Assembly: GCA_029558535.1 (NCBI GenBank)
Contig: JAKQEK010000292.1
Location: forward strand, 1 to 64,000
Length of the DNA: 64,000 bases
Origin: Bacteroidota bacterium
GTDB taxonomy: Bacteria; Bacteroidota; Bacteroidia; Bacteroidales; ML635J-15
Direction: 5' to 3'
The notes under the pieces were generated by a model that was given only the letters and a program-made list of their open reading frames with translations, made no database searches and was not told the DNA's origin. Positions within the stretch are counted from its first letter, which is position 1. Every line of letters begins with the position of its first letter. A program made the translations under genes and the position numbers. Positions 1 through 15,865 of the stretch are shown here, in pieces.

Positions 1-1
1 A

Positions 2-874
2 AATATCGAACATTTTAATGCAATATTACCCGAATTACAAGCTAGTTTACCCGTTGCAGATAAGTATAAAAAAGAGTCTGCGTCAACTTCGGGTGATATG
101 AATGTTTACTATGTTGTATATTATGGTGGAGATTGCAACTCCGGAAGTAAAAACATTGCAATTAATTTGCCTAATGACCCGAGAGTACACGCAGCAAAAG
201 GTTCACGCAAACTGCAATTAAAAAATGCAATGCAGGCAAAATTTGATAAAATACTTGTCCCGATTGCAGAATTGCTTATTGACAAATCTCAGATGAAGCA
301 TATTAAGTTCGAGGATGGATTTTTCCAGAATGTTATGTTCCATGAAGTTGCACACGGCTTGGGTATTAAATATGTGATAAACAGTAAAAAATCTGTTCGC
401 GAAGCTTTGGAGGAATATTATAGTCCGCTAGAAGAAGCAAAAGCAGATATTACAGGATTATTTCTCATTACAAAATTATATGAGATGGGAGAATATCCTG
501 AAAAAGATCTTATGGATAATTATGTTACTTTCCTTGCAGGGATATTCCGTTCTGTACGTTTTGGTGTTGCCAGTTCGCATGGAAAGGCAAATATGATGGA
601 GTTTTATTATTTACTCGATAAAGGAGCATTTGCACGCAACGACGAAACCGGCAAATATTCGGTTGACTTCGACAAAATGAAATCAGCAGTATCTCAAATG
701 GTTAATGATATTATTGTAATTCAAGGAAACAAAGATAAAAATGCAGCAAAAAATTGGGTTGATACCAAAAGTGTTGTAGGCGAAGAATTACAAAAAGATT
801 TGGATAAAATTGCCGGAGCCGGTATCCCAAAAGATATTGTTTTTAAACAGGGAGCAGATATCCTGGGATTATAG
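2..874 (+). CDS. M49-like (dipeptidyl-peptidase III type) zinc peptidase, C-terminal part
   Basis: The reading frame is open from base 2, so the gene starts before the window and only about 290 C-terminal residues are visible. A zinc-site motif HEVAHGLG (HExxH) is followed about 55 residues later by an acidic helix EEAKAD, the spacing and pattern of the second zinc ligand in peptidase family M49 (HExxGH plus EECRAE/D in classical dipeptidyl-peptidase III). The upstream GGDCNSGSKNIAINLPND segment suits the substrate-binding region of the bacterial members. Expected role: removal of dipeptides from peptide N-termini. No later signal can be judged because the N-terminus is missing. The family assignment rests on the two motifs; another HExxH metallopeptidase remains possible. 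Confidence 0.6.
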   Translation, partial: NIEHFNAILPELQASLPVADKYKKESASTSGDMNVYYVVYYGGDCNSGSKNIAINLPNDPRVHAAKGSRKLQLKNAMQAKFDKILVPIAELLIDKSQMKHIKFEDGFFQNVMFHEVAHGLGIKYVINSKKSVREALEEYYSPLEEAKADITGLFLITKLYEMGEYPEKDLMDNYVTFLAGIFRSVRFGVASSHGKANMMEFYYLLDKGAFARNDETGKYSVDFDKMKSAVSQMVNDIIVIQGNKDKNAAKNWVDTKSVVGEELQKDLDKIAGAGIPKDIVFKQGADILGL

Positions 875-1034
875 TTCCAGATTGTATTATTTGAGAAAAT
901 ATGAGAAATTCATTGATAGAAGTTATTCAAACACTGTTTGCCGGTGGAAAAATCTGTTTTTTTAAATACTTGTAATTTCGAATGATTTTTAAGAAATGTT
1001 AAAACCTGAGAAATAAATAAAAATGAAAAATATC

Positions 1035-1118
1035 CCATCACCTCTAAATGCAAAAAAGGTGTGTTTATACAACTTAATTTGTATGTTTTTATGTACCTTT
1101 TTGCACAACAAGGTGATG
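1035..1118. repeat. 84-nt intergenic inverted repeat (three nested stems)
   Basis: CCATCACCT (1035-1043) pairs with AGGTGATGG (1110-1118); inside it TGCAAAAAGGT (1049-1059) pairs with ACCTTTTTGCA (1094-1104); the tip is ATACAA (1066-1071) with TTGTAT (1078-1083). All three stems are perfect and the internal loop between the first two is a symmetric 5x5. No T-run follows on either strand and it lies 160 bases past the peptidase stop, so it does not look like an ordinary terminator. It may be a small palindromic mobile repeat or a structured RNA. Confidence 0.75.
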
Positions 1119-1305
1119 GTATAAACAAGTTACCTACAATGCGACCAAAGATTCCGATATAATAAGATGACTGACAGATAAGCTCAAAATAAAAGGTAGA
1201 ATTGATTTATGAATTTATGACAAAGACAGCCGATGCACAAGCCACCCCATGTTTTAATTTTTTTTTGCCAACCCACAAGAAGAAAGAATTTGCCATTACA
1301 CGTTT

Positions 1306-1366
1306 AGCACATTTTGTTTTTTCGCACAATACCCCTAAAAATGCCTTAAAAAACAAAAAGAGCTTA
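1306..1366 (+). repeat. Dispersed repeat, copy 1 (left of the Trk module)
   Basis: Shares with 8020-8076 the blocks GCACATTTTGTTTTT(T)CGC, TGCCTTAAAA and AACAAAAAGAGCTT in the same order and orientation, with small indels between them. The two copies bracket the five-gene potassium module. Confidence 0.7.
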
Positions 1367-1427
1367 ACCTACACCCCACCGGAGTACAAATTGAATTGCG
1401 ATTTTTTTAATACATTTCAAAATCTGC

Positions 1428-1435
1428 TACTTTTG
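1428..1435 (+). promoter_or_regulatory. Candidate Bacteroidota -7 element (TACTTTTG)
   Basis: Matches TAnnTTTG, 27 bases before the ATG at 1463. No clear -33 TTTG is present at the usual distance, so this is a weak promoter call. Confidence 0.35.
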
Positions 1436-1462
1436 CACTAATTTTTATTGATAAAGTTTACC

Positions 1463-2803
1463 ATGATAACAACTGTTTTAATCATAGACGATGAAGACAA
1501 ACTTAGAAACCTTTTATCAAGGATTATAAAATTCGAAGGTTTTGAGGTTTCAGAAGCATCTGACTGTAAAACTGCTTTGAAAAAAGTTGACAATTCTCAT
1601 TATGATATTATCATTTGCGATGTTAAACTTCCAGATGGTAATGGTATTGATTTGATAAAACAACTAAAAACAAAAAGTAAAAAATCAGAAATAATTTTAT
1701 TGACTGCCTACGGCAATATTCCTGACGGAGTACAAGCAATAAAAAACGGAGCTTTTGATTATATAGTAAAAGGCGATGACAATAATAAAATCATTCCTTT
1801 GTTGCATAGAGCAAATGAAAAACTGCAATTATTAAAGCGAATAGAAACACTTGAAAATAAAGTTAAAGAAAAATATTCATTCGATAATATCAGTTGCAAA
1901 TCAAAGAATATTCAACAAGCAATTGAATTTGCAAAAAAGGTTGCAAATACTGATACTTCTGTTTTACTTACTGGTGAAACAGGAACAGGGAAAGAGGTTT
2001 TTGCTCAATCAATACACAACGAAAGTCCTTTTTCAAAAAATAATTTTGTTGCTTTAAATTGCAGTAATTTTAATAAAGATGTTCTAGAAAGCGAGTTGTT
2101 CGGTTACAAACAAGGAGCTTTTACCGGTGCAATAAGAGATAAAAAAGGTTTATTGGAGGAAGCAAATAAAGGCACTCTGTTTTTGGATGAAATTGGTGAT
2201 ATGCCTTATGAATTACAATCAAAATTACTTCGGGTTATTGAAACCAATCAATTTATAAAATTAGGAGATACAAAAATAATCTCTGTTAATTTTCGTTTGA
2301 TTGCAGCCACAAACAAGAACCTGAAAAAAGAATGTGATGAACAACGTTTTCGTTCTGATTTATTTTACAGAATTAGTACATTTCATATAGAAATACCACC
2401 ATTAAGAGAGCGAAAAGAAGATATTGAACCACTTGCTGAGTATTTTGTAAAACAGTTTGCAGAGAAAACCAAAAAGAAAATCAATTCTATTAATAAAGCA
2501 TATATTAAAAAACTTATGCAGTATAAATGGCAAGGGAATATTCGTGAACTAAAAAACATAATTGAACGAAGCGTTATTCTTGCAAATGGAGATGAATTAA
2601 CAGTTGATACACTGCCAATTGATTTAGCTATAATCAATAATGGGACTAATGAAACTAACCAATTAGAACTTGCGGTAATTGAGAAAAATCACATAATAAA
2701 AGTGCTACATCACACAAAAGGAAATAAAGCCGAAACGGCACGGCTTTTAAATATTGCAGTTACAACCCTATACAGAAAAATAGAAGAATATAAAATTGAT
2801 TAA
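1463..2803 (+). CDS. Sigma54-dependent response regulator (NtrC family)
   Basis: Two-component transcription activator. An N-terminal receiver domain (residues 1-120) has the acidic pocket IIDDED, phospho-acceptor D53 (CDVKLPDGNG) and the conserved K in DYIVKGD. The central AAA+ domain (about 140-365) carries Walker A GETGTGKE at 171-178 and the sigma54-contact loop GAFTGA at 218-223. The C-terminus has a Fis-type helix-turn-helix (KGNKAETARLLNIAVTTLYRK). The ATG at 1463 is chosen because it begins directly at the receiver strand; a TTG at 1448 in frame is the alternative. It should activate sigma54 promoters when phosphorylated, most simply by the kinase encoded at 6257-7981, and the three genes between them are likely targets. 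No convincing sigma54 promoter was seen in the 153-bp gap downstream. Confidence 0.93.
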   Translation: MITTVLIIDDEDKLRNLLSRIIKFEGFEVSEASDCKTALKKVDNSHYDIIICDVKLPDGNGIDLIKQLKTKSKKSEIILLTAYGNIPDGVQAIKNGAFDYIVKGDDNNKIIPLLHRANEKLQLLKRIETLENKVKEKYSFDNISCKSKNIQQAIEFAKKVANTDTSVLLTGETGTGKEVFAQSIHNESPFSKNNFVALNCSNFNKDVLESELFGYKQGAFTGAIRDKKGLLEEANKGTLFLDEIGDMPYELQSKLLRVIETNQFIKLGDTKIISVNFRLIAATNKNLKKECDEQRFRSDLFYRISTFHIEIPPLRERKEDIEPLAEYFVKQFAEKTKKKINSINKAYIKKLMQYKWQGNIRELKNIIERSVILANGDELTVDTLPIDLAIINNGTNETNQLELAVIEKNHIIKVLHHTKGNKAETARLLNIAVTTLYRKIEEYKID

Positions 2804-2956
2804 ACATATCAAAACGCTATTATAACCCTTTCAATATACTAAGATAATTTTCTTAATAAATTATCATTTATACTTCTAACTCATTCATTTTCTGTTTTTT
2901 AAATTAAATCTTACTGTCAGGTATAAAATTTGGCAATACCATGAAAAAATATATTT

Positions 2957-3295
2957 ATGGAAACAAAAATTAAAAATACGCTGACAAAATGGTTTCCCAA
3001 TGCCTTTACATCTTTTACTGGCATTGAAGAAGCATCTGACTACGAGGTGCTGAATTACTTTGCTCAATTCACCCTTGACCTTCTTAGAAGAGATCAGATT
3101 GAACAATGTAAGGAGCATTTAAAAATTATCAATTTGCTTTATAGTAATGGTACATTACATGACAGAAACGCCATTGAAAACGAATTTTTGGCTATTCTCG
3201 TTTGTGATGAAATGCCATCACTATTAAAAACGCATATTGATATGATGCCAAAAGGCCTCAGGGCAGTGTATTTGAAAACCATTTTAGAAAACTAA
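2957..3295 (+). CDS. Small conserved protein of unknown function (112 aa) in Trk module
   Basis: Soluble, largely helical, without signal peptide or membrane segment. It begins METKIKNTLTKWFPNAF and contains an acidic-aromatic stretch (ASDYEVLNYFAQF). It resembles small proteins that I recall lying next to sigma54 regulators in Bacteroidota K+ transport operons (possibly the DUF7674 family, from memory and not verified). It is separated from the regulator by a 153-bp gap, where a promoter could lie, and ends 8 bases before trkA, so it probably leads the trkA-trkH-kinase operon. It may be an accessory or signalling partner. Function not established. Confidence 0.75.
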   Translation: METKIKNTLTKWFPNAFTSFTGIEEASDYEVLNYFAQFTLDLLRRDQIEQCKEHLKIINLLYSNGTLHDRNAIENEFLAILVCDEMPSLLKTHIDMMPKGLRAVYLKTILEN

Positions 3296-3308
3296 GAAGT
3301 GAATGTTT

Positions 3309-4643
3309 ATGAAAATAGTAATTGCTGGAGGTGGGGATATTGGCTTTTATCTCGCAAAATTATTAGAACAAGAATATAAAAATATTGTTTTAATTGATTC
3401 TCAAAAAGAAAATTTAAAAAGTGTAGAAACAAATCTTGGAATTGCAACAATACTGGGCGATTCCACCAGTTATAAAACATTAATGGATGCAGGGGTTGCT
3501 TCATGTCATTATTTTATTGGCTTCACATCTTCGGAGTCTGTAAATATTTTATCGTGCATATTAGCAAAAAAATTGGGGGCGAAACACACTGTAGCTCGAA
3601 TCAGCAACATGGAATATATTCTAAATAAAGATACGTTGAATTTTAAATTCAATGGTATTGATGATATTATTTCACCTGAATTTTTGGCTGCAAGAGAGAT
3701 TGAGCAAATTTTAAAAGAACCATCTTTAACAGAAAGCACGGAAATTGAGGACGGAAAACTTAAAGTAATTGGTTTACATCTTGACGACAATTCAAGATTA
3801 ATAGGAAAGACTTTAGCAGAATCTGCAAAATTTAATCTTGAAAACTCATTTATAATTGCTGCAATACACCGCTTTGGTAAAACAATTATTCCAAACGGTA
3901 AAACAATTCTTGAAACAGGAGATTATTTGTACTTTATATCTGCCGACAAAACAGCAAGGCAAATTCTTGAATTTACAGGAAACCCACAAATAGAAATTAA
4001 AAATTTATTGATTGTTGGTGGCAGTAGAACAGGCGAATATTTAGCCCACAGGCTAAATAAAAATTTCAAAATAACTCTCATTGAAAAAGACCAAGCAAAG
4101 TGTAACGACCTTGCATTACGTTTAGAGCAAATTCAGGTTGTTCATGGAGATTGTACGAATACTAAACTTCTTGAAGAAGAAAGTATCGGAAATTATAATG
4201 CGTTTGTTTCTGTTACCGGAAATTCTGAAACCAACCTATTAAGTTGTATTGTGGCAAAACACCACAATGTTACAAAAACCATCGCCTTAATTGAAAATAT
4301 TGGACTCATTGATTATTCCCAAAATCTCGGAATAGATACGTTGTTGAATAAAAAACTCGCAGCAGCAAATTTTCTATTTAAAAATATTATCAAAGGCAAT
4401 AAATTATCTTTCCTAATTGGCATTGATGCAGAGATACTAGAATTTAATGTAAAGCAAAATTCGGAATTCAAAGGACGTAAAATTAAAGAATTGAATTTTC
4501 CTGAACATGCAATTATCGGAGGTGTTGTGAGAAATGAAAAGGGATACATTACCCTTGGAGATTTCGAGTTAAATGAAAACGATAAATTAATTATTTTTTC
4601 CCTGCCTCAGAGTGTAAAGAAAGTTCAATCAATGTTTCAATAA
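3309..4643 (+). CDS. trkA: Trk system potassium uptake protein TrkA
   Basis: Cytoplasmic nucleotide-binding regulatory subunit of the Trk/Ktr potassium channel. The protein is a duplicated RCK unit: a first Rossmann fold with GGGDIG and a terminal acidic residue in VLID (residues 1-130), an RCK_C domain (about 140-220), a second Rossmann fold opening with LLIVGGSRTGEYLA (about 228-350) and a second RCK_C domain at the end (about 365-444). This matches the usual two-RCK TrkA length of about 450 residues. Start chosen at ATG 3309 (MKIVIAGGGDIG), which fits the fold edge; ATG 3303 is an in-frame alternative two codons earlier. The stop lies 12 bases before trkH, with which it should form a gating complex. 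Confidence 0.93.
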   Translation: MKIVIAGGGDIGFYLAKLLEQEYKNIVLIDSQKENLKSVETNLGIATILGDSTSYKTLMDAGVASCHYFIGFTSSESVNILSCILAKKLGAKHTVARISNMEYILNKDTLNFKFNGIDDIISPEFLAAREIEQILKEPSLTESTEIEDGKLKVIGLHLDDNSRLIGKTLAESAKFNLENSFIIAAIHRFGKTIIPNGKTILETGDYLYFISADKTARQILEFTGNPQIEIKNLLIVGGSRTGEYLAHRLNKNFKITLIEKDQAKCNDLALRLEQIQVVHGDCTNTKLLEEESIGNYNAFVSVTGNSETNLLSCIVAKHHNVTKTIALIENIGLIDYSQNLGIDTLLNKKLAAANFLFKNIIKGNKLSFLIGIDAEILEFNVKQNSEFKGRKIKELNFPEHAIIGGVVRNEKGYITLGDFELNENDKLIIFSLPQSVKKVQSMFQ

Positions 4644-4655
4644 ATATTTGTAAAA

Positions 4656-6227
4656 ATGCCAAATAACGGAACTTTTAAAATTATTCTAAAACAAGTTGGT
4701 CATTTACAAATAGTATTAGGATTTGTATTTTGTGTTCCAATGCTTGTTTCATTATTCTTTGGAGAATATTATTCTGCATCAGGGTTTTTAATTTCATCAA
4801 TAATAACATTGACTTTGGGCTATGTTTTATACAAAGGTTTTAAAAATACTCCCGAACCCTTGCTTAGACATGCACTGATTATTGCAGCATTAGGTTGGTT
4901 AATGATTGCTGTTATGGGTTCACTCCCTTTTTTAATAATTGCATACATTACACCTGCCGAAATTGCACAGCAAATTGTTCCAGTTGGGGAAACATATATA
5001 TCAAGTCTTATATACTTCAAAAATCCACTTCATTGCTTATTTGAAAGCATGAGCGCATATACAACCACTGGTTTGACAATGGCTATACATGAACCTTCTA
5101 TTGGAAAGGGTTTGTTATTTTATCGTTCTTTTGCTCAATGGGTTGGTGGTGCTGGTTTTATTGTTCTTGCTTTAGCAGTTTTTCAACAGGTTGGGGGTAA
5201 GTCTGTAATGTTTTTATTCAGCTCAGAAACAAGCAGCGAAAGATTAAAACCGACTATTATTGATACAGCACGTTCAATTTGGAAAATGTATCTTGGCTTG
5301 ACTCTTTTCAGCACAATTTATCTAATTATTGGAACATTAATAATTTTACCCGATTATAACATTGTTGAAAATATTTTTAATTCTGTAAATCATGCAATGA
5401 CTGGTCAGTCAACTGGTGGTTTCAGCACCTTAGATGATAGTATTGCAGGATATAAATCAATGGCAATGGACAACCTATATTTATTACCTATGATATTAGG
5501 TTCGCTAGCAATTCCTTTTTACGTAAAAGTAATTATTGGTAAACAATTTAGCTTAATTTGGAAAGACAGCCAGACAAAAGCAATTTTAATATTATGTTTT
5601 TTTGGAAGTATTATAATGTCTTTATTCCTTATGTCTTCTGGCAATATTTCAGAACCGTTCAGAATAGGAGTTTTTCAGTTTATTAGCTCACTTACAACTA
5701 CTGGTTGGCAAACTTCTGATGTTAATATTTGGAATAGTCCCTCAATTGCTTTTATTCTGTTACCGATGATTATTGGCGGAGCTTCAGGGGCAACTGTAGG
5801 AGGAATTAAAATTTACAGATTTATTACAATTTTAAAAGGAGTTAATTGGAATCTTAACCGATATTTCATGTCTGCTAATAGTGTTCATGTTGTGGAATTG
5901 AATAGGAAAAGAATTTTGCCAGATGAAATGAATAAAGAACTTGCATCTGTGGCTACATTTTCATTTATGTATTTGGTAATTGTATTTATGTCTGCATTAA
6001 TAACTTATTTCTTTTCAGGGCACAATTATTCATTGGCAGCATCATTTTTTGAGTCTGCCTCTGCATCTGGGACTGTAGGACTTTCAGCTGGAATAACCAA
6101 CCCCGAAATGTCCCCTTTAATTGAAATTACATATATGTTTCAAATGTGGTTGGGGAGACTTGAAATAATACCTATTTTAGTTCTGTTCAGGACAATTCTT
6201 TTTGGTACAAAGCCGTTTCTTACTTAA
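4656..6227 (+). CDS. trkH: Potassium uptake channel subunit TrkH
   Basis: Integral inner-membrane K+ channel subunit. The 523 residues contain the four pore-loop signatures of the TrkH/KtrB/HKT superfamily, each with a selectivity-filter glycine: AYTTTGLT, MTGQSTGGFST, SLTTTGWQT and SASGTVGLSAG, between repeated M1-P-M2 hydrophobic segments. The length fits TrkH rather than the shorter KtrB. The last pore is followed by the conserved GRLEIIPILVLF segment. It is directly downstream of trkA (12 bases) and 29 bases upstream of the sensor kinase, so the four genes from 2957 probably form one operon under the sigma54 regulator. Confidence 0.95.
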   Translation: MPNNGTFKIILKQVGHLQIVLGFVFCVPMLVSLFFGEYYSASGFLISSIITLTLGYVLYKGFKNTPEPLLRHALIIAALGWLMIAVMGSLPFLIIAYITPAEIAQQIVPVGETYISSLIYFKNPLHCLFESMSAYTTTGLTMAIHEPSIGKGLLFYRSFAQWVGGAGFIVLALAVFQQVGGKSVMFLFSSETSSERLKPTIIDTARSIWKMYLGLTLFSTIYLIIGTLIILPDYNIVENIFNSVNHAMTGQSTGGFSTLDDSIAGYKSMAMDNLYLLPMILGSLAIPFYVKVIIGKQFSLIWKDSQTKAILILCFFGSIIMSLFLMSSGNISEPFRIGVFQFISSLTTTGWQTSDVNIWNSPSIAFILLPMIIGGASGATVGGIKIYRFITILKGVNWNLNRYFMSANSVHVVELNRKRILPDEMNKELASVATFSFMYLVIVFMSALITYFFSGHNYSLAASFFESASASGTVGLSAGITNPEMSPLIEITYMFQMWLGRLEIIPILVLFRTILFGTKPFLT

Positions 6228-6256
6228 TTTTGACATTATGTTTAAATCAATTTGAA

Positions 6257-7981
6257 ATGAAAATTAAAACAAAATTATATCTCGCAATAGGTATTTTCAA
6301 CTTACTTATTCTTGTTTTGGCGATTGTAGGAACAGTTTCAATACAATCTATGAAAAGCGATACAGAAAGTATTCTGAAAGCAAATTATAGTACGCTCGAT
6401 TATTGCAGAAATATGCTAAATGCTTTAGATAATGGATTAAGTAATGAAAAAAACTTTTTTGAATTTCAATCATGGCTTGACAAACAACAAATTAATATTA
6501 CGGAAACAGGCGAATCCGATTTGACAAATTCATTAATTCAGCATTTTGCCGAATACAAATTAAACTTTGAAGATGAAAATATTGAAATGAGAATCAGGAA
6601 AGATATATCTGAAATTACATTACTAAACATGAATGCCATTTCGCACAAAAGTGAAGTAGCAAAGATTACTTCGCAAAGAGCTATTATTTGGATTTCAGTT
6701 ACAGGTACTTTTTTCTTATTAATATCCTTTATTTTACTTTTTAATCTTCCATCAAGCATTGCTCATCCTGTAGAAATTCTGACAAATAGCGTAAAAGAAA
6801 TAGCGGCAAAAAATTATTCATTGAGGGTTGATTATAAAAATAGAGATGAATTCGGAATACTCTCAGAATCGTTTAATATAATGGCGGAAAAGCTTGAAGA
6901 ATATGAAAAAATAAACATTGCGAAAATATTGCACGAGAAAAAAAGAATTGATGCAATTATTAATAATATGCACGACCCTGTTATTGGGTTTGATGATTGC
7001 TTAAATATTATTTTTATGAACGCCGAAGCAAAATCAATATCTGGGCTAAAAGATATTGACATTATAGGAAAACAGGCAAAAGATATTGCATTGAAGAATG
7101 ATTTTATCAGAACTATTATTCACGATATATCTGAAACAGAAACAAAGGACAAAAAGAGTGAGCCAATTAAAATATTTTCAGAGAATAAAGAATATTATTT
7201 TGAAAAAGAATCAATCAGAATTACTGACTCATCAGTTCATGAACGTTTTACAAACTATATCGGAGATGTAATAATTCTAAAAAACATTACCGCTTTCAAA
7301 GAACTGGACATTGCAAAAACAAATTTCATTGCAACCGTATCACATGAAATGAAAACCCCTGTTTCTTCAATAAAAATGAGTACTCATTTATTAGAATCTA
7401 CAAAAGCATGTCAGATTACTGAAGAACAAAAAAATCTGATACAGGGCATTGATGAAGATTGCAACCGATTATTGAAAATAATTAGTGAACTTCTAAAGTT
7501 TACACAAGTAGAAACCGGAAATATTCAACTAACATTACAACAGTGCGACCCATCGGAAATATTGCAATATTCACTCGACACAGTTAAATTACAGGCAGAG
7601 CAAAATAATATTGTTATAAATTTGATAATCTCAGAGCATTTGCCAAAAATTAAGGCAGATAAAGAAAAGACAGCGTGGGTACTTATTAATTTAATATCAA
7701 ATGCAATAAGGTATTCACAAAGCAAAAGCAATATTGATATTGAAGTAAGGGAAAGTGAAAATAAAGTGTTGTTTTCTGTAAAGGATAATGGAATTGGAAT
7801 TGAATCACGTTATCAGAATAAGGTATTTGATAAATATTTTCAAGTGCCTGACAGTGGCAAAATCGGTACAGGATTAGGTTTGGCAATCAGTAAAGAATTT
7901 ATTGAAGCACAAGGCGGAAAAATTGGTTTTGAAAGTCATATTGGTCAAGGTAGCCGATTCTATTTTTATTTAAACACGTAG
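6257..7981 (+). CDS. Membrane sensor histidine kinase (HAMP-PAS-HisKA-HATPase)
   Basis: Orthodox sensor kinase. TM1 (about residues 7-27), an extracytoplasmic sensor region rich in short helices, TM2 (about 138-160), a HAMP linker, a PAS-like domain (about 235-345), HisKA with phospho-histidine H363 in SHEMKTP, then HATPase_c with N box LISNAIRYS, G1 DNGIGI and G2 GTGLGLAI. Start placed at ATG 6257 (MKIKTKLYLAIG), which opens the first membrane segment; the upstream TTG at 6230 would add nine residues unlike a signal. It closes the module begun by the sigma54 regulator at 1463, which is the obvious partner. The architecture resembles the NtrY-like kinases that pair with NtrC-type regulators. 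Confidence 0.92.
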   Translation: MKIKTKLYLAIGIFNLLILVLAIVGTVSIQSMKSDTESILKANYSTLDYCRNMLNALDNGLSNEKNFFEFQSWLDKQQINITETGESDLTNSLIQHFAEYKLNFEDENIEMRIRKDISEITLLNMNAISHKSEVAKITSQRAIIWISVTGTFFLLISFILLFNLPSSIAHPVEILTNSVKEIAAKNYSLRVDYKNRDEFGILSESFNIMAEKLEEYEKINIAKILHEKKRIDAIINNMHDPVIGFDDCLNIIFMNAEAKSISGLKDIDIIGKQAKDIALKNDFIRTIIHDISETETKDKKSEPIKIFSENKEYYFEKESIRITDSSVHERFTNYIGDVIILKNITAFKELDIAKTNFIATVSHEMKTPVSSIKMSTHLLESTKACQITEEQKNLIQGIDEDCNRLLKIISELLKFTQVETGNIQLTLQQCDPSEILQYSLDTVKLQAEQNNIVINLIISEHLPKIKADKEKTAWVLINLISNAIRYSQSKSNIDIEVRESENKVLFSVKDNGIGIESRYQNKVFDKYFQVPDSGKIGTGLGLAISKEFIEAQGGKIGFESHIGQGSRFYFYLNT

Positions 7982-8309: not shown

Positions 8310-9074
8310 TTACAGTTTTCCCGTTATATCATAAACAATGTATCCTCCAATTTCATGTATCAACAATGCCCAGCTTTGAAAGATTTCAGATTTGGGTAAG
8401 AAAATATCGGGGGTAAAAACTCTCTTGCCTGCATATCTTTCAGTAACGTAAGTATCGAAAATAAAACCTTGTTTTTTAAAACAGCCTTCCGCACGTCTCA
8501 TGTGAAATGCAGAGGTAATCAGCAGATATGTTTGTGAGTTTCTATCAGGTTTTAATATTTTTGCTGATTCAACAGCATTTTCATAAGTGTTTCTCGAGAC
8601 TGTCTCAATTTCAATATCTTCGGATGGTATTCCCAACACAACTAGATAATCTTTTAAAATCTCAGATTCTTTTGCCGACTGGTTGAATATTTCGCCAGAG
8701 CCTCCGGTTATAAAAATTTTCCCTATTCTGTTTTCTCTGTATAGCTCAACAGCTTGTAATAACCTGTCGTTTGAAGAATTAAAATTTATTCTGTCATATT
8801 TTTCGTCATAAGTCATCATTCCGGTTAAAACAATTCCATAGTCGTAGTATTCTTTTATTTCCGACTTCTGTTTTGCTTCAGGTTCCCAGGCTCTCATACA
8901 TTCGTAAAAAATAAACGGATTGCTGAATAACAGTAGTAACGAAAATGCTATAACTCTTAAATGTTTGGCAGTTTTTTGCTCTTTTCTGATAATAAAACTT
9001 ATTGTGAATAAAACCAAAATCCATGTTAAAGGAGAAAAGACAAACTGGAATATTTTTGATAATAAAAAGAACAT
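8310..9074 (-). CDS. YdcF/ElyC/SanA family (DUF218) membrane protein
   Basis: Two N-terminal hydrophobic segments (about residues 10-30 and 38-58) are followed by a DUF218 fold: a strand YGIVLTG, a basic-polar region with NDRLLQAVELY, the glycine motif KIFITGGSGE, the helix SETVSRNTYENAV-type segment (here EIETVSRNTYENAVESAKIL) and LLITSAFHMRRA. ElyC and SanA relatives in Enterobacteria affect cell-envelope integrity and peptidoglycan or enterobacterial common antigen metabolism; the reaction is unsettled. Length (254 aa) fits the ElyC group, which has two transmembrane helices. It is divergent from the glutamine synthetase gene, with a 106-bp shared upstream region. Confidence 0.85.
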   Translation of the reverse strand: MFFLLSKIFQFVFSPLTWILVLFTISFIIRKEQKTAKHLRVIAFSLLLLFSNPFIFYECMRAWEPEAKQKSEIKEYYDYGIVLTGMMTYDEKYDRINFNSSNDRLLQAVELYRENRIGKIFITGGSGEIFNQSAKESEILKDYLVVLGIPSEDIEIETVSRNTYENAVESAKILKPDRNSQTYLLITSAFHMRRAEGCFKKQGFIFDTYVTERYAGKRVFTPDIFLPKSEIFQSWALLIHEIGGYIVYDITGKL

Positions 9075-9138
9075 ATTTAAATGTTATTAAATATATTTTG
9101 CATTCAAAGAGTTAATAATTGAACAAAATTACTTATTT

Positions 9139-9155
9139 TTATCAAAATTTGATAA
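9139..9155. promoter_or_regulatory. 17-bp palindrome in a divergent promoter region
   Basis: TTATCAAA-A-TTTGATAA is perfectly symmetric about 9147. It lies 25 bases before the glutamine synthetase ATG and between two divergent genes. The symmetry suggests a dimeric regulator site, but AT-rich palindromes can arise by chance; no regulator can be named. Confidence 0.35.
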
Positions 9156-9180
9156 GAATAAATTAATAAATATAGATATC

Positions 9181-10692
9181 ATGACAAAAACAGAATTTGA
9201 TTTAAGTCCAAATTTATTGGAAAAGTATCTGAAAAAATCGTGTAAGGAATTTACTAAACAAGACATTATTGATTATATTGTCGGGAATAATATTGAGATG
9301 CTTAATTTTCGTTATGTCGCAGGTGATGGAAGATTGAAATCTCTGAATTTTGTAATCAACAGTCTTGAACATCTTGATCAGGTACTGACAACAGGTGAGA
9401 GATGTGATGGTTCTAGTTTGTTTTCATTTATTGGTGCAGGTTCGAGTGATTTGTATGTAGTGCCTCGTTATAGTACTGCTTTTGTAAACCCTTTCGAGGA
9501 TGTGCCAAGTTTGGATATTTTATGTTCTTATTACAATAATGAAGGGAAACCTTTAGAATCATCTCCTGAATATGTTTTACGAAAAGCACATGAAAATCTA
9601 AAAAAAGCAACAGGATATACTTTTAAAGCACTTGGGGAACTTGAATATTATATAATTGCTGATAAGGAAGAAAATACCCTATTCCCGGCAGTTGACCAAA
9701 AAGGTTATCACGAATCTGCTCCATTTGCAAATTTCGAATGGTTGCGAAAAGAAGCTATGCACCTTATTGCACAATGTGGGGGTAAAATTAAATACGGACA
9801 TTCCGAAGTTGGTAATTTTACAGACGAAAATTATTATTACGAGCAGCAGGAAATAGAGTTTTTACCTTGCGAAGCAGAATCTGCTGTTGATCAATTGCTT
9901 ATTGCAAAATGGATTTTAAGAAAGTTATGCAATGATTATGGCGTAAATGTAAGTTTAGCACCTAAAATTACTGTTGGAAAAGCAGGAAGTGGTTTACATA
10001 TTCACATGATGCTCGAAAAAGACGGTAAAAACATGATGGTAGCCAACGATAAACTGAGTGATGATGCAAAAAAGATGATTGCCGGTTTGTGCGATTTGGC
10101 AGATGCTTTGACTGCTTTTGGCAACACTATTCCAACATCATATTTGAGATTAGTTCCACATCAGGAGGCTCCCACAAATATTTGCTGGGGTGACAGAAAT
10201 CGTAGTGTTCTTATACGTGTGCCTCTTGGATGGAATGGCGACATGAATATGATTTATGATGCTAATCCACAGGAAAAATCAAAAATGGTAAAAACTGACA
10301 GTAAACAAACTGTTGAAATTAGAAGTGGAGATGGCTCGGCTGACTTATACTTGTATGTGGCAGCAATTATTGTAGCTGCTCAACATGGACTCGAAATGCC
10401 TGATTCACTTAAACTTGCTGAAAAACTCTATGTAAATGTTAATATTTTTAGCGAAGAATACAAAGATAAGCTGGCTCAATTAAAAGCTTTACCTGTATCA
10501 TGTTACGAATCTGCTGAAGTCCTTGAAAACAAAAGGACGTATTTTGAGAAAAACGGAGTTTTTCAACCCGGGCTTATAGATGCAACAATAAAAAAATTGA
10601 AATCTTACGAGGATAAAGGATTAAGCGAAAAGCTTTTTGGAAAACATGATGAGATTTATAAACTAGTTATGAAATATCTACATTGTATGTAG
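9181..10692 (+). CDS. glnA: Glutamine synthetase family protein
   Basis: ATP-dependent amidation of glutamate to glutamine. The 503 residues contain the beta-grasp N-terminal domain (about 20-110, with RCDGSSLFSF as the family's DGSS-type motif) and the catalytic barrel: a metal-site motif GELEYYI, GHSEVGNF and EQQEIEFLPCEA, the histidine motif GSGLHIHMML, the ATP/substrate region PTNICWGDRNRSVLIRVP (NRSxxIR), and the late RSGDGSADLYLYVAA. No adenylylation-loop tyrosine motif could be identified with confidence. Sequence and length place it with the roughly 500-residue Bacteroidota type. A family member acting on another amine (gamma-glutamylpolyamine synthetase-like) cannot be ruled out. No ammonium transporter or PII gene adjoins it. 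Confidence 0.88.
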   Translation: MTKTEFDLSPNLLEKYLKKSCKEFTKQDIIDYIVGNNIEMLNFRYVAGDGRLKSLNFVINSLEHLDQVLTTGERCDGSSLFSFIGAGSSDLYVVPRYSTAFVNPFEDVPSLDILCSYYNNEGKPLESSPEYVLRKAHENLKKATGYTFKALGELEYYIIADKEENTLFPAVDQKGYHESAPFANFEWLRKEAMHLIAQCGGKIKYGHSEVGNFTDENYYYEQQEIEFLPCEAESAVDQLLIAKWILRKLCNDYGVNVSLAPKITVGKAGSGLHIHMMLEKDGKNMMVANDKLSDDAKKMIAGLCDLADALTAFGNTIPTSYLRLVPHQEAPTNICWGDRNRSVLIRVPLGWNGDMNMIYDANPQEKSKMVKTDSKQTVEIRSGDGSADLYLYVAAIIVAAQHGLEMPDSLKLAEKLYVNVNIFSEEYKDKLAQLKALPVSCYESAEVLENKRTYFEKNGVFQPGLIDATIKKLKSYEDKGLSEKLFGKHDEIYKLVMKYLHCM

Positions 10693-10721
10693 TTTTTTAA
10701 CTATGTGATTATAACTTTTTT

Positions 10722-10910
10722 GGTAATTATTTAGGTGGTTTATAACTCTGAGCCCGCAGGGCTCAATGTCAGTAACCCCGACTTGTAAGTAGGGGTTCAA
10801 CAAACTGGAACAATAGCTTTTGGAATATGTATTTGTCAAATTATAGGAGTATGGGTAGGGTACAAATACTATTACAAAAGCGAATAATAGATGCCACCTA
10901 AATAATTACC
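10722..10910. repeat. 189-bp element with 17-bp perfect terminal inverted repeats
   Basis: GGTAATTATTTAGGTGG (10722-10738) is the exact reverse complement of 10894-10910. Three nested hairpins lie between: TGAGCCC-gca-GGGCTCA (10749-10765); AACCCC(g)ACTT-gt-AAGT(a)GGGGTT (10774-10797); and a two-part stem GCTTTTG (10816-10822)/CAAAAGC (10875-10881) with GTATTTGT (10829-10836)/ACAAATAC (10862-10869). There is no coding frame. This looks like a MITE-type non-autonomous element or a multibranched structured RNA rather than a terminator of the upstream gene, whose stop is 30 bases away. Confidence 0.8.
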
Positions 10911-11007
10911 TTTATTGTTTTCTTTAAGAGTTTATTCGCTTCGCTCATGAGCTCGCCTGCGGCTCGGTTCGGTTTTAAGATTTCGAATATTGATTTTGTA
11001 TTTTTGT

Positions 11008-11200
11008 CACTAAGGCACTAAGATACACTAAATTTTTTCTTGTTTTCGTGAGATTTTGTGTTTTCGTGATTCTTCTTTAACCACAAAGCGATGCAGTGAG
11101 TTTAACCGAACTGGACGCAGAGAGTCGCAGAGTTATTTGTTTTTTTTGCCACTGATCACTGACACTGACCACTACTTATCACTGACCACTGATTACCGAT
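11008..11200. repeat. Simple near-repeats (CACTAAG-type and CCACTGA-type)
   Basis: Around 11009-11033 the word CACTAAG/CACTAA recurs (cactaaggcactaag, acactaaa). Around 11151-11200 CACTGA/CACTGACCACT recurs several times. Such words are, from memory, common in dispersed repeats of environmental Bacteroidota and related genomes. No coding potential. Confidence 0.5.
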
Positions 11201-11373
11201 TACAAAAAAAAACCACAGTCTTGAGTTTGTTTTATTTGATTAATAAAATATAGTTGCTCTTAAACCATTTTTTAGATAGAGTGAGATTGAGTGAGGAGAG
11301 CACAGGTGCTTTGTATAATAAATACTTCTAAAAATTGTTAAGTGCTTTTGTTTGGGTTAGCAATATTAATACC

Positions 11374-11971
11374 CCTGACTTGTCCGGATTAGTGCGACAA
11401 ATTAAGGTCTCTCCAGACTTGTCCCAATTAGTGCGTTAATTTTTTTAAAATCAGAATTGTAAAGCGACAAAACAGTATTCAATGCTCCGCGGGATGGCCT
11501 GGCAAAACGGCGGGCAGCTCAAGCGGTGAGATCGAAACAATTAGAATTGTGTCGAGCCGACATGACAAGTGCCGATGATAAATTTGTTTAGTATAATCGA
11601 GCAAATGAAATTGCGAAGATTAGACTATTACAAATTTACAATCGGTGTCGTTCTCTAAAACAAATATTTGGGTACTGGCCAAAGGAGTATGGCATTTGTT
11701 TTAGGTCAAGGTCGACGTACAATTCTTTTGTTTCGTCTCGAGGTGCGTTGGGCAGCATCGTTTTGCCTTGACTTTTTTGTAACTTTTTTTGTTAAGAAAA
11801 AAAGTTTGATATAAATAAATGAAGCGAATTTTGTTAGCTGTTGACCAGCTATTATTTACTTGAAATATTTTTCAAGCACTGCCTTAGTGCAGCAAAAACA
11901 TATGTTATAATTTGTATATTGCAGATATTCAAACACTTAAGGCTGTGTAAAATTCGAAGGGACAAGTCAGG
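11374..11971. mobile_element. Hairpin-rich element bounded by 12-bp inverted repeats (possible MITE or IS remnant)
   Basis: CCTGACTTGTCC at 11374-11385 is the exact reverse complement of GGACAAGTCAGG at 11960-11971. A second direct copy of the left-end word (GACTTGTCC..ATTAGTGCG) begins near 11417, about 39 bases on. Inside are several hairpins: 11532-11555 (TCGA a ACAATT ag AATTGT g TCGA); 11572-11645 (CCGAT and TAAATTTGT pairing with ACAAATTTA and ATCGG); 11657-11702 (AAAACAAAT/ATTTGTTTT); GTCAAGG 11705-11711 with CCTTGAC 11766-11772; and AACTTTTTTT/AAAAAAAGTT (11781-11806). No transposase is encoded and no target-site duplication was seen, so mobility is inferred only from the end symmetry. 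Confidence 0.5.
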
Positions 11972-12017
11972 AAAAAATAACAAAATAGTTCATATATTAA
12001 CTAAAACCTAATTAGCT

Positions 12018-12025
12018 TATATTTG
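12018..12025 (+). promoter_or_regulatory. Candidate -7 element (TATATTTG)
   Basis: Matches TAnnTTTG, 17 bases before the ATG of the methyltransferase-like gene. No convincing -33 TTTG is visible. Confidence 0.35.
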
Positions 12026-12042
12026 CCAGAAAATTCAGGATT

Positions 12043-12744
12043 ATGAAAAAGTGGATTATTCTTTTTCTTTTGTTTGTAATTCTTTCGTCATGTACTTTGA
12101 TGAATAGGATTTTTCTTCACGACCAAATTTCTTCGTACAAGGGGCACTCGTCAAATTGCAAGCTATATACCGAAAAAGATAGCACAGTTATCCGATTTTT
12201 TAAAAGATTAACGGAAATGGTAGGGATAATGGATAATGATACCATATTAAGTATCGGAGCTGGAAGTGGAGGTCGCGAATTTTTAATTTCACTTTATACC
12301 GATAATGTCTTGTTTTATCTCGAAGATATAGACACTATGTGTATTTCGCAAGAGCGAATTTTTCAGTTGTATTATCCTCATTATTCAAAATTGCGAGACA
12401 AACCCATTACTAATAGATTTGTAACTATTCTAGGTAACGACACTTCGACTTGTATGCCTAGCTTTTCGGTAAACAAAGTATTTATTTACAATGTATATCA
12501 TCATTTTACAGACGACATAGCAATGGTAAAAGAATGCCAACGTGTACTAAGAAAAAACGGAAAATTAATTATTTGTGAACATGTGATGAGGCGAAATAAA
12601 ACGTCCTATAAGTTTTGCGATTACGGAGGTTTTTATAAAACCGAGAAGAATTTTATTTCAGATATCGTGGATCAAGGTTTTATCTGTCAAAAAGTTATTC
12701 CTGATGGAAAATATTGGCGTACATTTGTTTTTGTAAAACTATAA
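12043..12744 (+). CDS. SAM-dependent methyltransferase-like protein with lipoprotein signal
   Basis: Residues 1-17 form a lipoprotein signal peptide (KK, hydrophobic core, lipobox LSSC with C17). The rest is a class I methyltransferase fold: motif I ILSIGAGSGGREF (about 66-78), an acidic second strand YLEDID, and the late strands VYHHFTDDIAMVKECQRVLR and GKLIICEHV typical of methyltransferase_11/25 proteins. The unusual point is the export signal, because S-adenosylmethionine is cytoplasmic; the protein may be an anchored non-methylating relative, or the hydrophobic N-terminus may only be a membrane anchor facing inward. It ends 3 bases before the HAD phosphatase gene and is probably co-transcribed with it. 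Substrate unknown. Confidence 0.8.
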   Translation: MKKWIILFLLFVILSSCTLMNRIFLHDQISSYKGHSSNCKLYTEKDSTVIRFFKRLTEMVGIMDNDTILSIGAGSGGREFLISLYTDNVLFYLEDIDTMCISQERIFQLYYPHYSKLRDKPITNRFVTILGNDTSTCMPSFSVNKVFIYNVYHHFTDDIAMVKECQRVLRKNGKLIICEHVMRRNKTSYKFCDYGGFYKTEKNFISDIVDQGFICQKVIPDGKYWRTFVFVKL

Positions 12745-12747
12745 TTT

Positions 12748-13383
12748 GTGATTAGAGCCGTAATATTCGACATGGACGGTGTTCTGATAAACTCGGAACC
12801 GCTGTGGAAGATTGCCGAGAAGGAGGTTTTTTTATCTCTTGGAGTACAAGTAACTGACGAGTTGGTACACATTACTTCTGCTCTTACTGCTCAGGAAGTA
12901 TGTGCTTTTTGGTACGAAAGACATCCATGGCAAGGAATGAGCTTTGATGAAGTTGAAGATGCCGTTGTCGCTCGTGTTATTGAACTAATCGGTCAATACG
13001 ATACAAAAATGCCCGGTGTAATAGAAATTTTGGAATTTTTTAAAAGCAATAATCTAAAAATAGGACTAGCATCTAATTCTTCGCATAATCTTATCGAAGT
13101 TGTACTCGAAAAAGTAGGGATTAAGGATTATTTCGATTTTTTGTCTTCTGCTCAGGATGTCGAAAAAGGGAAACCTGATCCTGCAGTTTATCTGTACGCA
13201 GCAAAAAACCTTGGTGTTGAGCCAAAAGAATGTTTGGTTTTTGAAGATTCTATTATAGGAATCACTGCTGCAAAAAATGCCGGAATGAAGGTTGTTGCAG
13301 TGCCTGAAAAGACTGATTTTAATAATATAGCTTTCGATTTGGCAGATTATAAAATACAATCATTAAGTGAATTTCAATTATAA
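12748..13383 (+). CDS. HAD hydrolase, beta-phosphoglucomutase/hexitol phosphatase type
   Basis: HAD superfamily subfamily IA, 211 residues. Motif I FDMDGVLINSEPLW (nucleophile D9, acid/base D11 in FDMDG), a four-helix cap (about 16-85), motif II LASNSS, motif III lysine in KGKPDP and motif IV FEDSIIGITAAKNAGM. The closest familiar proteins are YniC/HxpB-type sugar-phosphate phosphatases. These dephosphorylate 2-deoxyglucose-6-phosphate and hexitol phosphates. A mutase role is also possible because the phosphatase and mutase subgroups share these motifs. The start codon is GTG at 12748, giving MIRAVIFDMDG. It follows the methyltransferase-like gene by 3 bases. Confidence 0.87.
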   Translation: MIRAVIFDMDGVLINSEPLWKIAEKEVFLSLGVQVTDELVHITSALTAQEVCAFWYERHPWQGMSFDEVEDAVVARVIELIGQYDTKMPGVIEILEFFKSNNLKIGLASNSSHNLIEVVLEKVGIKDYFDFLSSAQDVEKGKPDPAVYLYAAKNLGVEPKECLVFEDSIIGITAAKNAGMKVVAVPEKTDFNNIAFDLADYKIQSLSEFQL

Positions 13384-13522
13384 TTTCATATTATTAAATC
13401 AAAAATGGAGTAATTTTATGAAGTTTAGATAAAAATATTTAAAACATTTCATTAATATAAAACAATTCACTAATTTTAATCTTAATTAGTTATAACTTTT
13501 ATTTAAAACTAAAAAGAAAACT

Positions 13523-14935
13523 ATGAAAAAGCTGATAATTATAATTTTTGTGCTTACTTGTAGTGCTAATATGTACTCGCAAGATATTTGTCTCACTCAA
13601 ACGGAGAAAGACGTGATAAAAATAATAAATCAAAAAAGATCGGAAAATGGATTAGTGAATTTGAAAATTTCACCGGTTTTAATGCTAACAGCAAATAAAA
13701 ATGCTGAAGAAATTATTACAGAATCTTATTTAAGTCATAAACCACAAAAATTTGGAGATTATAATTATGCTTTTGAGCAAATCAGATATACGACATCTCT
13801 CTCGGGAGCTATTGCAATTGCAAATTCTTTAACTGCTCAAAGCTCCTATACAAATTATCATGATATTATTTTTCAACAGGGAGAATATGATTCCAAGAAT
13901 TGGCAAAGTTTAGGTATTTCTGTAAGAGGCTCAACAGTAATTTTAATTTTGGGAGAAAAGCCTGAGTCATCGGATACTTACAATACATGTAGTGAAGAAG
14001 TCTTTTTTAATACAGGAGAATTACTACAAAATCCATTACTTTGTGTTAAGGTTTCGGAGACTGCACAGCTCACTGTTTATTCGGTTAAAAGTGATGGTAG
14101 TTCGATTCTCTATGATTATATCTTTGTGAGAGACGAAGGAGTTGAATGGGAGCTAAAGGATGATAATGCTGTATCGTTTACTGTTTATATTAGTCAGAAA
14201 ACACCACCAATTGTTCCGCAAGAAAGAATAGAGTTTGTAATTAGTAACACTGATAAGAAAAAAGTTGAAAAAACTATAAGCTTTAAAGGAAATACTGTTG
14301 ATGAAATTCGGGATTATATTAATTCAGGTAATGGAATAAATAGTGTTATGCCAAATGATCCAAATGGTTACACGATGTTACATAGAGCTGTAATTCAGGA
14401 TAATATTGAAGCAGCCAAATACCTGATTGAAAGCGGGGCAGACATTAACTTAAAAGGCTATGACGGAGAATCTCCCATATTCTTTGTTAGTTCTAACGAG
14501 ATGTTTGATTTGTTGCTAAAACATAATCCAAGATTCGATTTTTTAACTTCTGACAAAACGACAATTTTACATTCTTATGCGCAAATTGGTTTAATTGAGC
14601 CTGTACATTATATTGTTGAAAATAATAAAGTGGATATTAATGCTAAAGACAGAAGTGGAGGAACAGCCCTTATGTATGCAGTAGATCATGATCAATTTGA
14701 AACTGCAAAATATTTACTGGAAAATGGTGCATTACAAACCTATGGTTGGCTGGTTTATCCTATACACGATGCAGTTGAAAACTCAAATTTTGAAATGGTA
14801 AAATTGTTAGTTGAATATGGAGCAGATGTCAATTGTAAAAATGGAGAGGGAGAAACTCCTCTTGGGTATGCCAAACAATATCCCACCGACAAAGCCGAAA
14901 TAATTGATTTTTTGATTGAGAAGGGTGGAAGGTAA
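13523..14935 (+). CDS. Secreted CAP-domain protein with C-terminal ankyrin repeats
   Basis: Signal peptide at residues 1-20 (MKKLIIIIFVLTCSANMYSQ). A CAP/SCP-like domain follows (about 24-150): QTEKDVIKIINQKR helix, LTANKNAEEII, a histidine in YLSHKP, and a closing strand LGISVRGSTVILILGE. A beta-rich linker (about 155-265) leads to five or six ankyrin repeats (about 280-470) recognised by GYTMLHRAVIQDNIEAAKYL, ALMYAVDHDQFETAKYLL and GADVNCKNGEGETPLGYA. CAP domains in bacteria are extracellular with mostly unknown activity; ankyrin repeats bind proteins. The combination suggests an envelope protein that binds a partner. It is convergent with the next gene (30-bp gap). Confidence 0.85.
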   Translation: MKKLIIIIFVLTCSANMYSQDICLTQTEKDVIKIINQKRSENGLVNLKISPVLMLTANKNAEEIITESYLSHKPQKFGDYNYAFEQIRYTTSLSGAIAIANSLTAQSSYTNYHDIIFQQGEYDSKNWQSLGISVRGSTVILILGEKPESSDTYNTCSEEVFFNTGELLQNPLLCVKVSETAQLTVYSVKSDGSSILYDYIFVRDEGVEWELKDDNAVSFTVYISQKTPPIVPQERIEFVISNTDKKKVEKTISFKGNTVDEIRDYINSGNGINSVMPNDPNGYTMLHRAVIQDNIEAAKYLIESGADINLKGYDGESPIFFVSSNEMFDLLLKHNPRFDFLTSDKTTILHSYAQIGLIEPVHYIVENNKVDINAKDRSGGTALMYAVDHDQFETAKYLLENGALQTYGWLVYPIHDAVENSNFEMVKLLVEYGADVNCKNGEGETPLGYAKQYPTDKAEIIDFLIEKGGR

Positions 14936-14965
14936 GAGAAACTATTTATTAATTATAGAGAATCT

Positions 14966-15865
14966 TTACATTTCCACTCTCACCCCAAAACTTCCTCTGA
15001 AGCAACCGTATGTTTTTGTGCCTAGTTCAGGAATGTTATCAATAGCAAGTCCAGGCTGCATTTCACAGACAATGTGCATTTTTCTCCAGAATTCATTCTT
15101 TTTGGCAATTCTAAAGTCAAGTCCTAAAGGTACATAGGTATAAATAGAAATGTTGGTTTTATTTGCGTGTATTTCGCTTTCGTTTTTCGATTGATTTGAG
15201 TTGTATGAAGAATAGTTCCTATATATGGAGTTGTCAGGGAATACATATGCAACATATTCTGAATAATTATGATATATATGAGTTGCAGCCATCAGAGAAG
15301 CTGTTGCATAAAGTCCAATGCCACTATAAAGAGACCACCTGGCTTCCGGTTGTGTGCGAAAGATTAAATTTGCATTAAGTCCTATCTGCTGAAATAAATA
15401 ATTCATTTGATACGACTCACTTATTATTGTATCAAGAAAAATTAAATTTGTACTTGTTTGAGAAGTCAATGTGTCATATCTGATGTTTTGGTATTTGGAA
15501 TAATATGCACTCAAAGTGGAAGCACTAATAAATGTTATCCCGAGATTTAATTGCGGATTTGACTTATAATTTTGTTTTTCAACATCAAAAAATAATAAGC
15601 CCAGATTAATATTAAAAATATTGTCAGTAGTTGTTATTCCTAGATAAAATTCTGATTTGGCAAATGATGACAGATCATTGTTTAAAAATTCTGAACCAGG
15701 TGCCAGTTTTAAAAAGTCAGATAGATTTGAAGGAATATTATAGTTGCCATACATTCCATTATTAATACTGATATCTGAAATTCTTATATTTGGGCTTGGT
15801 TGCTCCTGACTTGTTACTGCAATTGATATCAAAAAGAGTGCAATCAGTAATATTGATTTTTTCAT
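14966..15865 (-). CDS. Predicted outer-membrane beta-barrel protein, unknown function
   Basis: Signal peptide MKKSILLIALFLISIAVTSQ (cleavage near residue 20). The mature chain alternates polar and aromatic residues in short strands (for example FYLGITTTDNIFNINLGLLF, NLGITFISASTLSAYYS, RWSLYSGIGLYATAS) and ends in a strand GSFGVRVEM, as expected for a small barrel. It resembles the general DUF/outer-membrane-barrel proteins of Bacteroidota but no specific family is recognised. It stands alone, convergent with the CAP-ankyrin gene and about 100 bases from the end of the large type B secreted protein. Confidence 0.7.
   Translation of the reverse strand: MKKSILLIALFLISIAVTSQEQPSPNIRISDISINNGMYGNYNIPSNLSDFLKLAPGSEFLNNDLSSFAKSEFYLGITTTDNIFNINLGLLFFDVEKQNYKSNPQLNLGITFISASTLSAYYSKYQNIRYDTLTSQTSTNLIFLDTIISESYQMNYLFQQIGLNANLIFRTQPEARWSLYSGIGLYATASLMAATHIYHNYSEYVAYVFPDNSIYRNYSSYNSNQSKNESEIHANKTNISIYTYVPLGLDFRIAKKNEFWRKMHIVCEMQPGLAIDNIPELGTKTYGCFRGSFGVRVEM

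Follow-up and report, generated by a model that had tools for sequence, protein, structure and literature searches.

The window, the whole 64,000-nucleotide stretch of DNA analysed here, harbors a short element that comparison with other copies delimits to 187 bp (positions 10723-10909; Table 1). Both ends of the element carry a perfect 16-bp terminal inverted repeat (TIR), and in the predicted fold, a terminal stem encloses three hairpins, denoted H1, H2, and H3. For positions 10715-10917, the predicted RNA fold has an energy of -71 kcal/mol, whereas shuffled sequences average -42.5 +/- 3.8 (z -7.4) and none of the 200 reached as low a value. None of the listed open reading frames (ORFs) of at least 60 amino acids overlaps the element. 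The first-pass annotation had described a 189-bp element with 17-bp perfect inverted ends, three internal hairpins, and no reading frame. The hairpins and the lack of a reading frame stand, and the inverted ends are indeed exact over 10722-10738 and 10894-10910, but the 17th pair belongs to the flanking target-site duplication and the element itself is 2 bp shorter.

Table 1 Features of the element and its flanks (positions in the window)
Feature	Position	Strand	Basis or remark
Left target-site duplication CTTTTTTG	10715..10722		7/8 identical to 10910-10917
5' terminal inverted repeat GTAATTATTTAGGTGG	10723..10738	+	Perfect inverse of 10894-10909; common to family A copies
Hairpin H1, GAGCCC-GCA-GGGCTC	10750..10764	+	Predicted fold and copy alignments
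H1-H2 linker, conserved	10765..10773	+	Family pattern ~AATRTYNRTA; alignment columns and sequence upstream of H3
Hairpin H2, CAGT-AACCCC..GGGGTT..ACTG	10770..10807	+	One G-A mismatch in the window copy
Hairpin H3	10816..10881	+	R2 model match, covariation, presence across Bacteroidota
3' terminal inverted repeat	10894..10909	-	Perfect inverse of 10723-10738
Right target-site duplication CTTTATTG	10910..10917		7/8 match to 10715-10722

The last bases of the H1-H2 linker are able to pair at the foot of H2, and the position of the G-A mismatch in H2 is occupied by a G-C pair in 24 of the 26 aligned copies. H3 consists of a 7-bp stem, a G.A mismatch (10823/10874), 4 bp, a bulged T (10828), 8 bp, and a variable loop; it matches the H3 model R2 with 63.9 bits (E 6.3e-16), the window copy being one of the 39 sequences of that model. 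There is no second copy within the window, where the only other R2 match has an E-value of 0.8, and the element model R1 re-detects the same place on the other strand. Downstream of the element, at 11000-11180, lies a degenerate simple-sequence stretch with motifs like CACTGACCACTGAT and CACTAAG.

A mobile family of 187-bp elements

The genome from which the window comes contains 45 BLAST matches to the element and 47 matches of the covariance model R1 at E<=0.01, the latter including fragments and one opposite-strand match; diverged full copies are present in G024, a genome of the same genus. This family of 187-bp elements, with the end sequence GTAATTATTTAG, is hereafter called family A. The alignment of full copies from the own genome comprises 25 sequences which, together with three from G024, were used to analyze the flanks. 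An 8-bp duplication with at least 7 of 8 identical positions flanks 14 of these 28 copies, compared to 1.7% of 756 mismatched flank pairs; recognizable duplications are absent in the other half of the copies. Exact flank matches were found for 10 copies at a length of 8 bp and for 0-1 at the other lengths tried (4-13). These duplications identify the 187-bp element as a MITE, an assignment of which we are nearly certain. Both the further copies, in the own and in related genomes, and the flanking duplications, for which the first-pass annotation had proposed to search, are thus present, and the MITE-type element that it suggested is borne out by copy number, TIRs, and target-site duplication.

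Two loci of this family (L004 and L006) have a common second repeat directly on the left flank, so these may be composite or nested insertions. In four copies, L023, L025, and L029 (G000) and L032 (G024), H3 contains an additional small hairpin (CCCGACTTTTCGGG-like), always inserted at one and the same position; its presence in copies from two species suggests old, coexisting subfamilies.

We found no long element with family A ends among the loci examined. The only pairs of such ends 500-4000 bp apart came from two neighboring MITE copies, and those unpaired ends that were inspected proved to be remnants beside unrelated genes, so neither represents an autonomous copy. GTAA ends and an 8-bp duplication are traits of IS66. 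We rejected IS66 as the source of the family A MITE because the own genome encodes no IS66 transposase (0 matches to PF03050, compared to 2 of the 26 genomes of the genus with matches). The own assembly is 88% complete and consists of 513 contigs; therefore, the failure to find a transposase carries little weight.

A common interior flanked by unrelated ends

R1 matches were detected in 11 of the 26 genomes of the genus, the own one included, and the loci inspected contain the same H1-H2-H3 interior between unrelated ends. Among the loci examined, two additional MITE families were delineated. Copies of family B bear CAGGGCAAACGCATACTTTT ends (up to 5 mismatches being allowed in the search) and are associated with a 10-bp duplication, which retains at least 9 identical positions in 11 of 31 copies and is exact in 7. 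In family C, recognized by CTTAGTACATGACAAAAA ends (up to 4 mismatches), the duplication is 9 bp long; at least 8 positions are identical in 13 of 14 copies, and 10 of these are exact. For family B, a 1236-bp element in G019 encodes an intact 362-aa transposase of the PF13808 (ISAs1) family (E 7.2e-33); the first 14 bp of the end of this element are those of family B, and it is flanked by a perfect 10-bp duplication. Family B thus has a transposase partner in the same genome. Three sets of ends and three duplication lengths suggest that three transposases have moved one and the same module.

At other loci, the module or H3 alone is present without recognized MITE ends. In G052, neighboring H1-H2-H3 units are arranged consecutively, and in some of them H3 is only half complete (L206, L208, and L210). 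A candidate fourth family, D, with TTATTGTTGTCCGCTAAA ends (G006, G014, and G016), was not counted, given the loose search and an indistinct duplication length, even though its ends resemble inverted repeats.

The module comprises, in this order, a short H1 (with a 3-nt loop in the window copy), a linker, H2, another linker, and the interrupted, approximately 20-bp H3. H1 followed by H2 was found upstream of 92 of 216 unique H3 sequences, compared to 9 in a downstream control and 7.3 in shuffles. In the alignment of 39 H3 sequences, 97.2% of the cells pair, and this fraction drops to 43-49% (at most 49.4%) when the partners are slid by 1-3 columns; two-sided changes are observed in 12 of the 19 pairs, and the covariation score was reached by 0 of 500 shuffles. 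Among 95 non-redundant hits, which were found by the model and hence are biased towards it, the mismatch is G.A in all 95, the pair two positions inward is G.T (62) or A.T (33), and 54 have T as the bulged base. The positions TGGC/TGACA and TTTG/CAAA are conserved, with covarying neighbors, and the loop is hypervariable.

The compensation of stem changes, an expectation of the first-pass annotation, is borne out in part: most changes in H3 are matched on the opposite side of the stem, whereas pairs are broken without compensation in the TIR, H1, and H2 and at one position of H3. In 9 of the 26 aligned copies, the bases adjoining the G.A mismatch do not pair (A.A, A.G). Across the 26 full elements, 10 of 49 pairs show two-sided change, five of these in the terminal stem and none in H1; the matched ends of the terminal stem may reflect no more than transposase sites. 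Outside the constitutive G.T pair, G.T cells (21) are not much more common than A.C cells (13). The covariation of H3 itself is plain, and the alignments indicate that the fold of this strand, with its fixed G.A mismatch and bulge, is very probably under selection.

H3 extends far beyond the genus. Of 393 genomes of the order, 37 gave an R2 match (E<=0.001), as did 14 of 395 genomes drawn from the phylum (E<=1e-4), the own genome being counted in both surveys, each of which applied strict filters and scored at most 13 candidates per genome. An H3 pattern scan of named genomes yielded at least 110 stretches, and among the matches listed, all 80 titles are those of Bacteroidota, including the isolate Paenimyroides viscosum, Saprospiraceae, and Cyclobacteriaceae. 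A phage origin of H3 was rejected given that a viral contig collection contained no exact match to two H3 patterns.

A scan of the element against Rfam 15 recovered no family at the gathering score, and neither did scans of the module at 17 loci (own element included) and in one L374 stretch. Permissive scans gave only matches far below the gathering score, such as those to U7 and SCARNA7 in the window and to mir-4003 in the H3 of L241. The latter locus also contains a Flavo-1 RNA (Rfam RF01705; L241:4537-4619), on the opposite strand at a distance of about 430 bases from the H3 copy. Among the listed titles and abstract openings of open-licence papers, none described the module. With no Rfam family at threshold and strong two-sided covariation of H3 across genomes, the undescribed multibranched RNA offered by the first-pass annotation as an alternative to the MITE holds as an RNA-like module, and the two readings are valid together.

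Tyrosine recombinases and other explanations

In some genomes, H3 keeps company with genes of tyrosine recombinases. Conceivably, these enzymes use H3 as a hairpin of single-stranded DNA, comparable to the bottom strand of integron attC; elements with paired recombinases would carry it as a site, and it would have been captured by, or have colonized, the MITEs. This is the main rival explanation, but we consider it unlikely. In its favor, profile A4, representing the second, degenerate recombinase of the pair, matches in 26 of the 393 genomes of the order, and 8 of these also contain H3, against 2.4 expected (p 0.0013). In six genomes, H3 is located downstream of a recombinase gene, on the opposite strand, at less than 1 kb from the A4-matching gene in five of these eight (G036, G114, G171, G237, and G246) and at about 2 kb in G611, where a gene for a Mutator-type transposase lies in between. 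Four of these six genomes (G036, G171, G237, and G611) show both recombinase genes in tandem. In G114, the second recombinase gene is cut off by the end of the contig and the first is not visible, and in G246, only a remnant of the second gene is found, beside an unrelated gene. Moreover, 29 of the 37 H3-containing genomes, the own one included, lack such a recombinase at E<=1e-20 (with at most 6 candidates scored per genome).

G237 contains 18 copies of an H3-associated repeat on one strand, all within a 200-kb stretch (101-300 kb of the 4.8-Mb chromosome) that also encompasses 11 tandem recombinase pairs; 11 of the 18 copies include H3. A pair lies within 2.5 kb of only 6 of the 11 H3 copies and not of the other 5, and 5 of the 11 pairs adjoin repeats without a recognized H3. 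In G237 and G611, the observed boundaries of the repeats are about 0.5-0.65 kb away from H3, and therefore, H3 is probably not the crossover site there. Weaker R2 matches in a similar position relative to a recombinase were found at L405 and L379 (the latter cut by the locus end), and most of the 29 recombinase loci scanned with R2 gave no match of that kind. The MITE families, for their part, show DDE-type duplications instead.

Like attC (PMC2727003), H3 is a hairpin of one folded strand with an outer stem, a mismatch serving as spacer, an inner stem, an extrahelical base, and a variable terminal part, and recombinase genes lie nearby in some genomes. Unlike attC, H3 lacks the defining AAC/GTT core triplets of the R boxes, having conserved TG-G-C and G-A-CA instead, and contains a single, fixed G.A; most H3 genomes lack the recombinase at the cut-off, and repeat boundaries do not fall at the hairpin.

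The stretch G237:C1:101405-300816 (L211, L365-L368) is an array of approximately 10-kb units, all in one direction. Besides the 11 recombinase pairs, it encodes a primase of the DnaG/Toprim type, and at least one unit has a gene for a ParE-like toxin; some unit joints have a repeat of about 76 bp in common, and TTCAATTGAA palindromes occur in the region. In L374, a 6.9-kb repeat that includes H3 together with genes for a Mutator-type transposase and a pair of recombinases is present twice (1-6919 and 8535-15457, 99.9% identical) and ends about 30 bases past a TTTCAATTGAAA palindrome, inside an open frame.

Less likely still is a plain MITE with a functionless interior, in which the module is a shared relic and the hairpins are kept matched by replication that corrects imperfect palindromes. 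Such correction can yield two-sided changes without selection; the pairs broken in some copies fit as well. The functions of the 84 neighboring proteins vary, and the most frequent families, tyrosine recombinases among them, match 3 of the 84, as expected of a dispersed element and not of a gene-specific regulator. However, palindrome correction would tend to remove the G.A mismatch and the bulge, and the former persists across families, as the latter usually does. The positions TGGC/TGACA and TTTG/CAAA are conserved while their neighbors covary, and the H1-H2-H3 order is kept between unrelated ends.

A retron-type or other reverse-transcriptase RNA, with the terminal stem as a1/a2, H1-H2 as msr, and H3 as msd, resembles the element in general layout but is largely refuted and highly improbable, given that no reverse transcriptase is found among the 25 listed of the 106 families matched by the neighboring proteins, the target-site duplications show DNA transposition, and no Rfam family matches the module at threshold.

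Proposed role and comparison with known systems

With regard to its ends, the evidence supports an ordinary MITE; the interior contains a structured module that is widely shared and previously undescribed. The presence of the same module in unrelated mobile elements of the phylum points to a shared, undescribed signal, either a structured RNA or single-stranded DNA. The orientation of H3 relative to neighboring genes bears on this choice: the upstream neighbor within 500 bp is co-directional in 97 cases and opposed in 54 (p 6e-4), and where both neighbors lie on one strand, 62 copies are sense and 32 antisense (p 0.003), these counts being based on crude gene calls and related copies, with 23 of 258 places inside a called ORF left out. 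The downstream neighbor shows no sense bias (102 vs 89), and in family A taken separately, the bias is not significant (11 vs 7, p 0.48). This modest sense bias favors RNA; that the module acts as RNA rather than as single-stranded DNA is, in our estimate, slightly short of an even chance.

The best explanation, which we hold to be somewhat probable, is a MITE moved by a DDE-type transposase and containing a module that acts as RNA and is bound by a host protein. A putative DDE-type transposase would act on the 16-bp TIRs and duplicate 8 bp of the target, in line with the anatomy observed. Read-through from a neighboring gene would then produce a transcript that folds into H1-H2-H3, and a host protein common in Bacteroidota could bind H3. 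Such binding might make the insertion tolerable, for instance, via shaping of transcript ends or decay, and tolerated insertions would allow these MITEs to persist and multiply. More generally, and only tentatively, we propose that H1-H2-H3, of which H3 is the most widespread part, is an undescribed accessory domain shared by mobile elements of Bacteroidota. The domain would be located within MITEs of different transposase families and next to elements with paired tyrosine recombinases, and a common protein of the host or the element would recognize it as folded RNA or as folded single-stranded DNA.

MITEs are usually viewed as empty shells, the sequence of which is relevant only at the ends. 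Here, one apparently selected internal fold is common to unrelated MITEs, and H3 is also associated with some recombinase elements. It can now be tested whether a common functional domain is exchanged among mobile elements of bacteria and which protein or process reads it, and annotators would gain a recognizable family where Rfam 15 has none.

Among known systems, the GTAG/CGTC REPs (PMC3733652) resemble H3 in being dispersed intergenic hairpins, some with mismatches or bulges, that are suspected to act as RNA; H3 differs in its interrupted 20-bp stem, its long variable loop, its place in a three-hairpin unit, and its movement within DDE-type MITEs. No conserved GTAG or CGTC tetranucleotide is present in the H3 alignment A3. 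With other bacterial MITEs, the element shares short length, the lack of a reading frame, TIRs, a duplication of fixed length, and many intergenic copies. It is distinguished by a conserved three-hairpin interior that is common to families with unrelated ends and to loci without such ends; furthermore, a partner transposase of family A was not found in the own genome and at the loci examined. A parallel in organization comes from eukaryotic SINE superfamilies, in which one conserved internal domain is common to mobile families with different ends. The shared interior and the differing ends are alike in both cases, but the elements described here are bacterial DNA transposons rather than RNA-copied elements.
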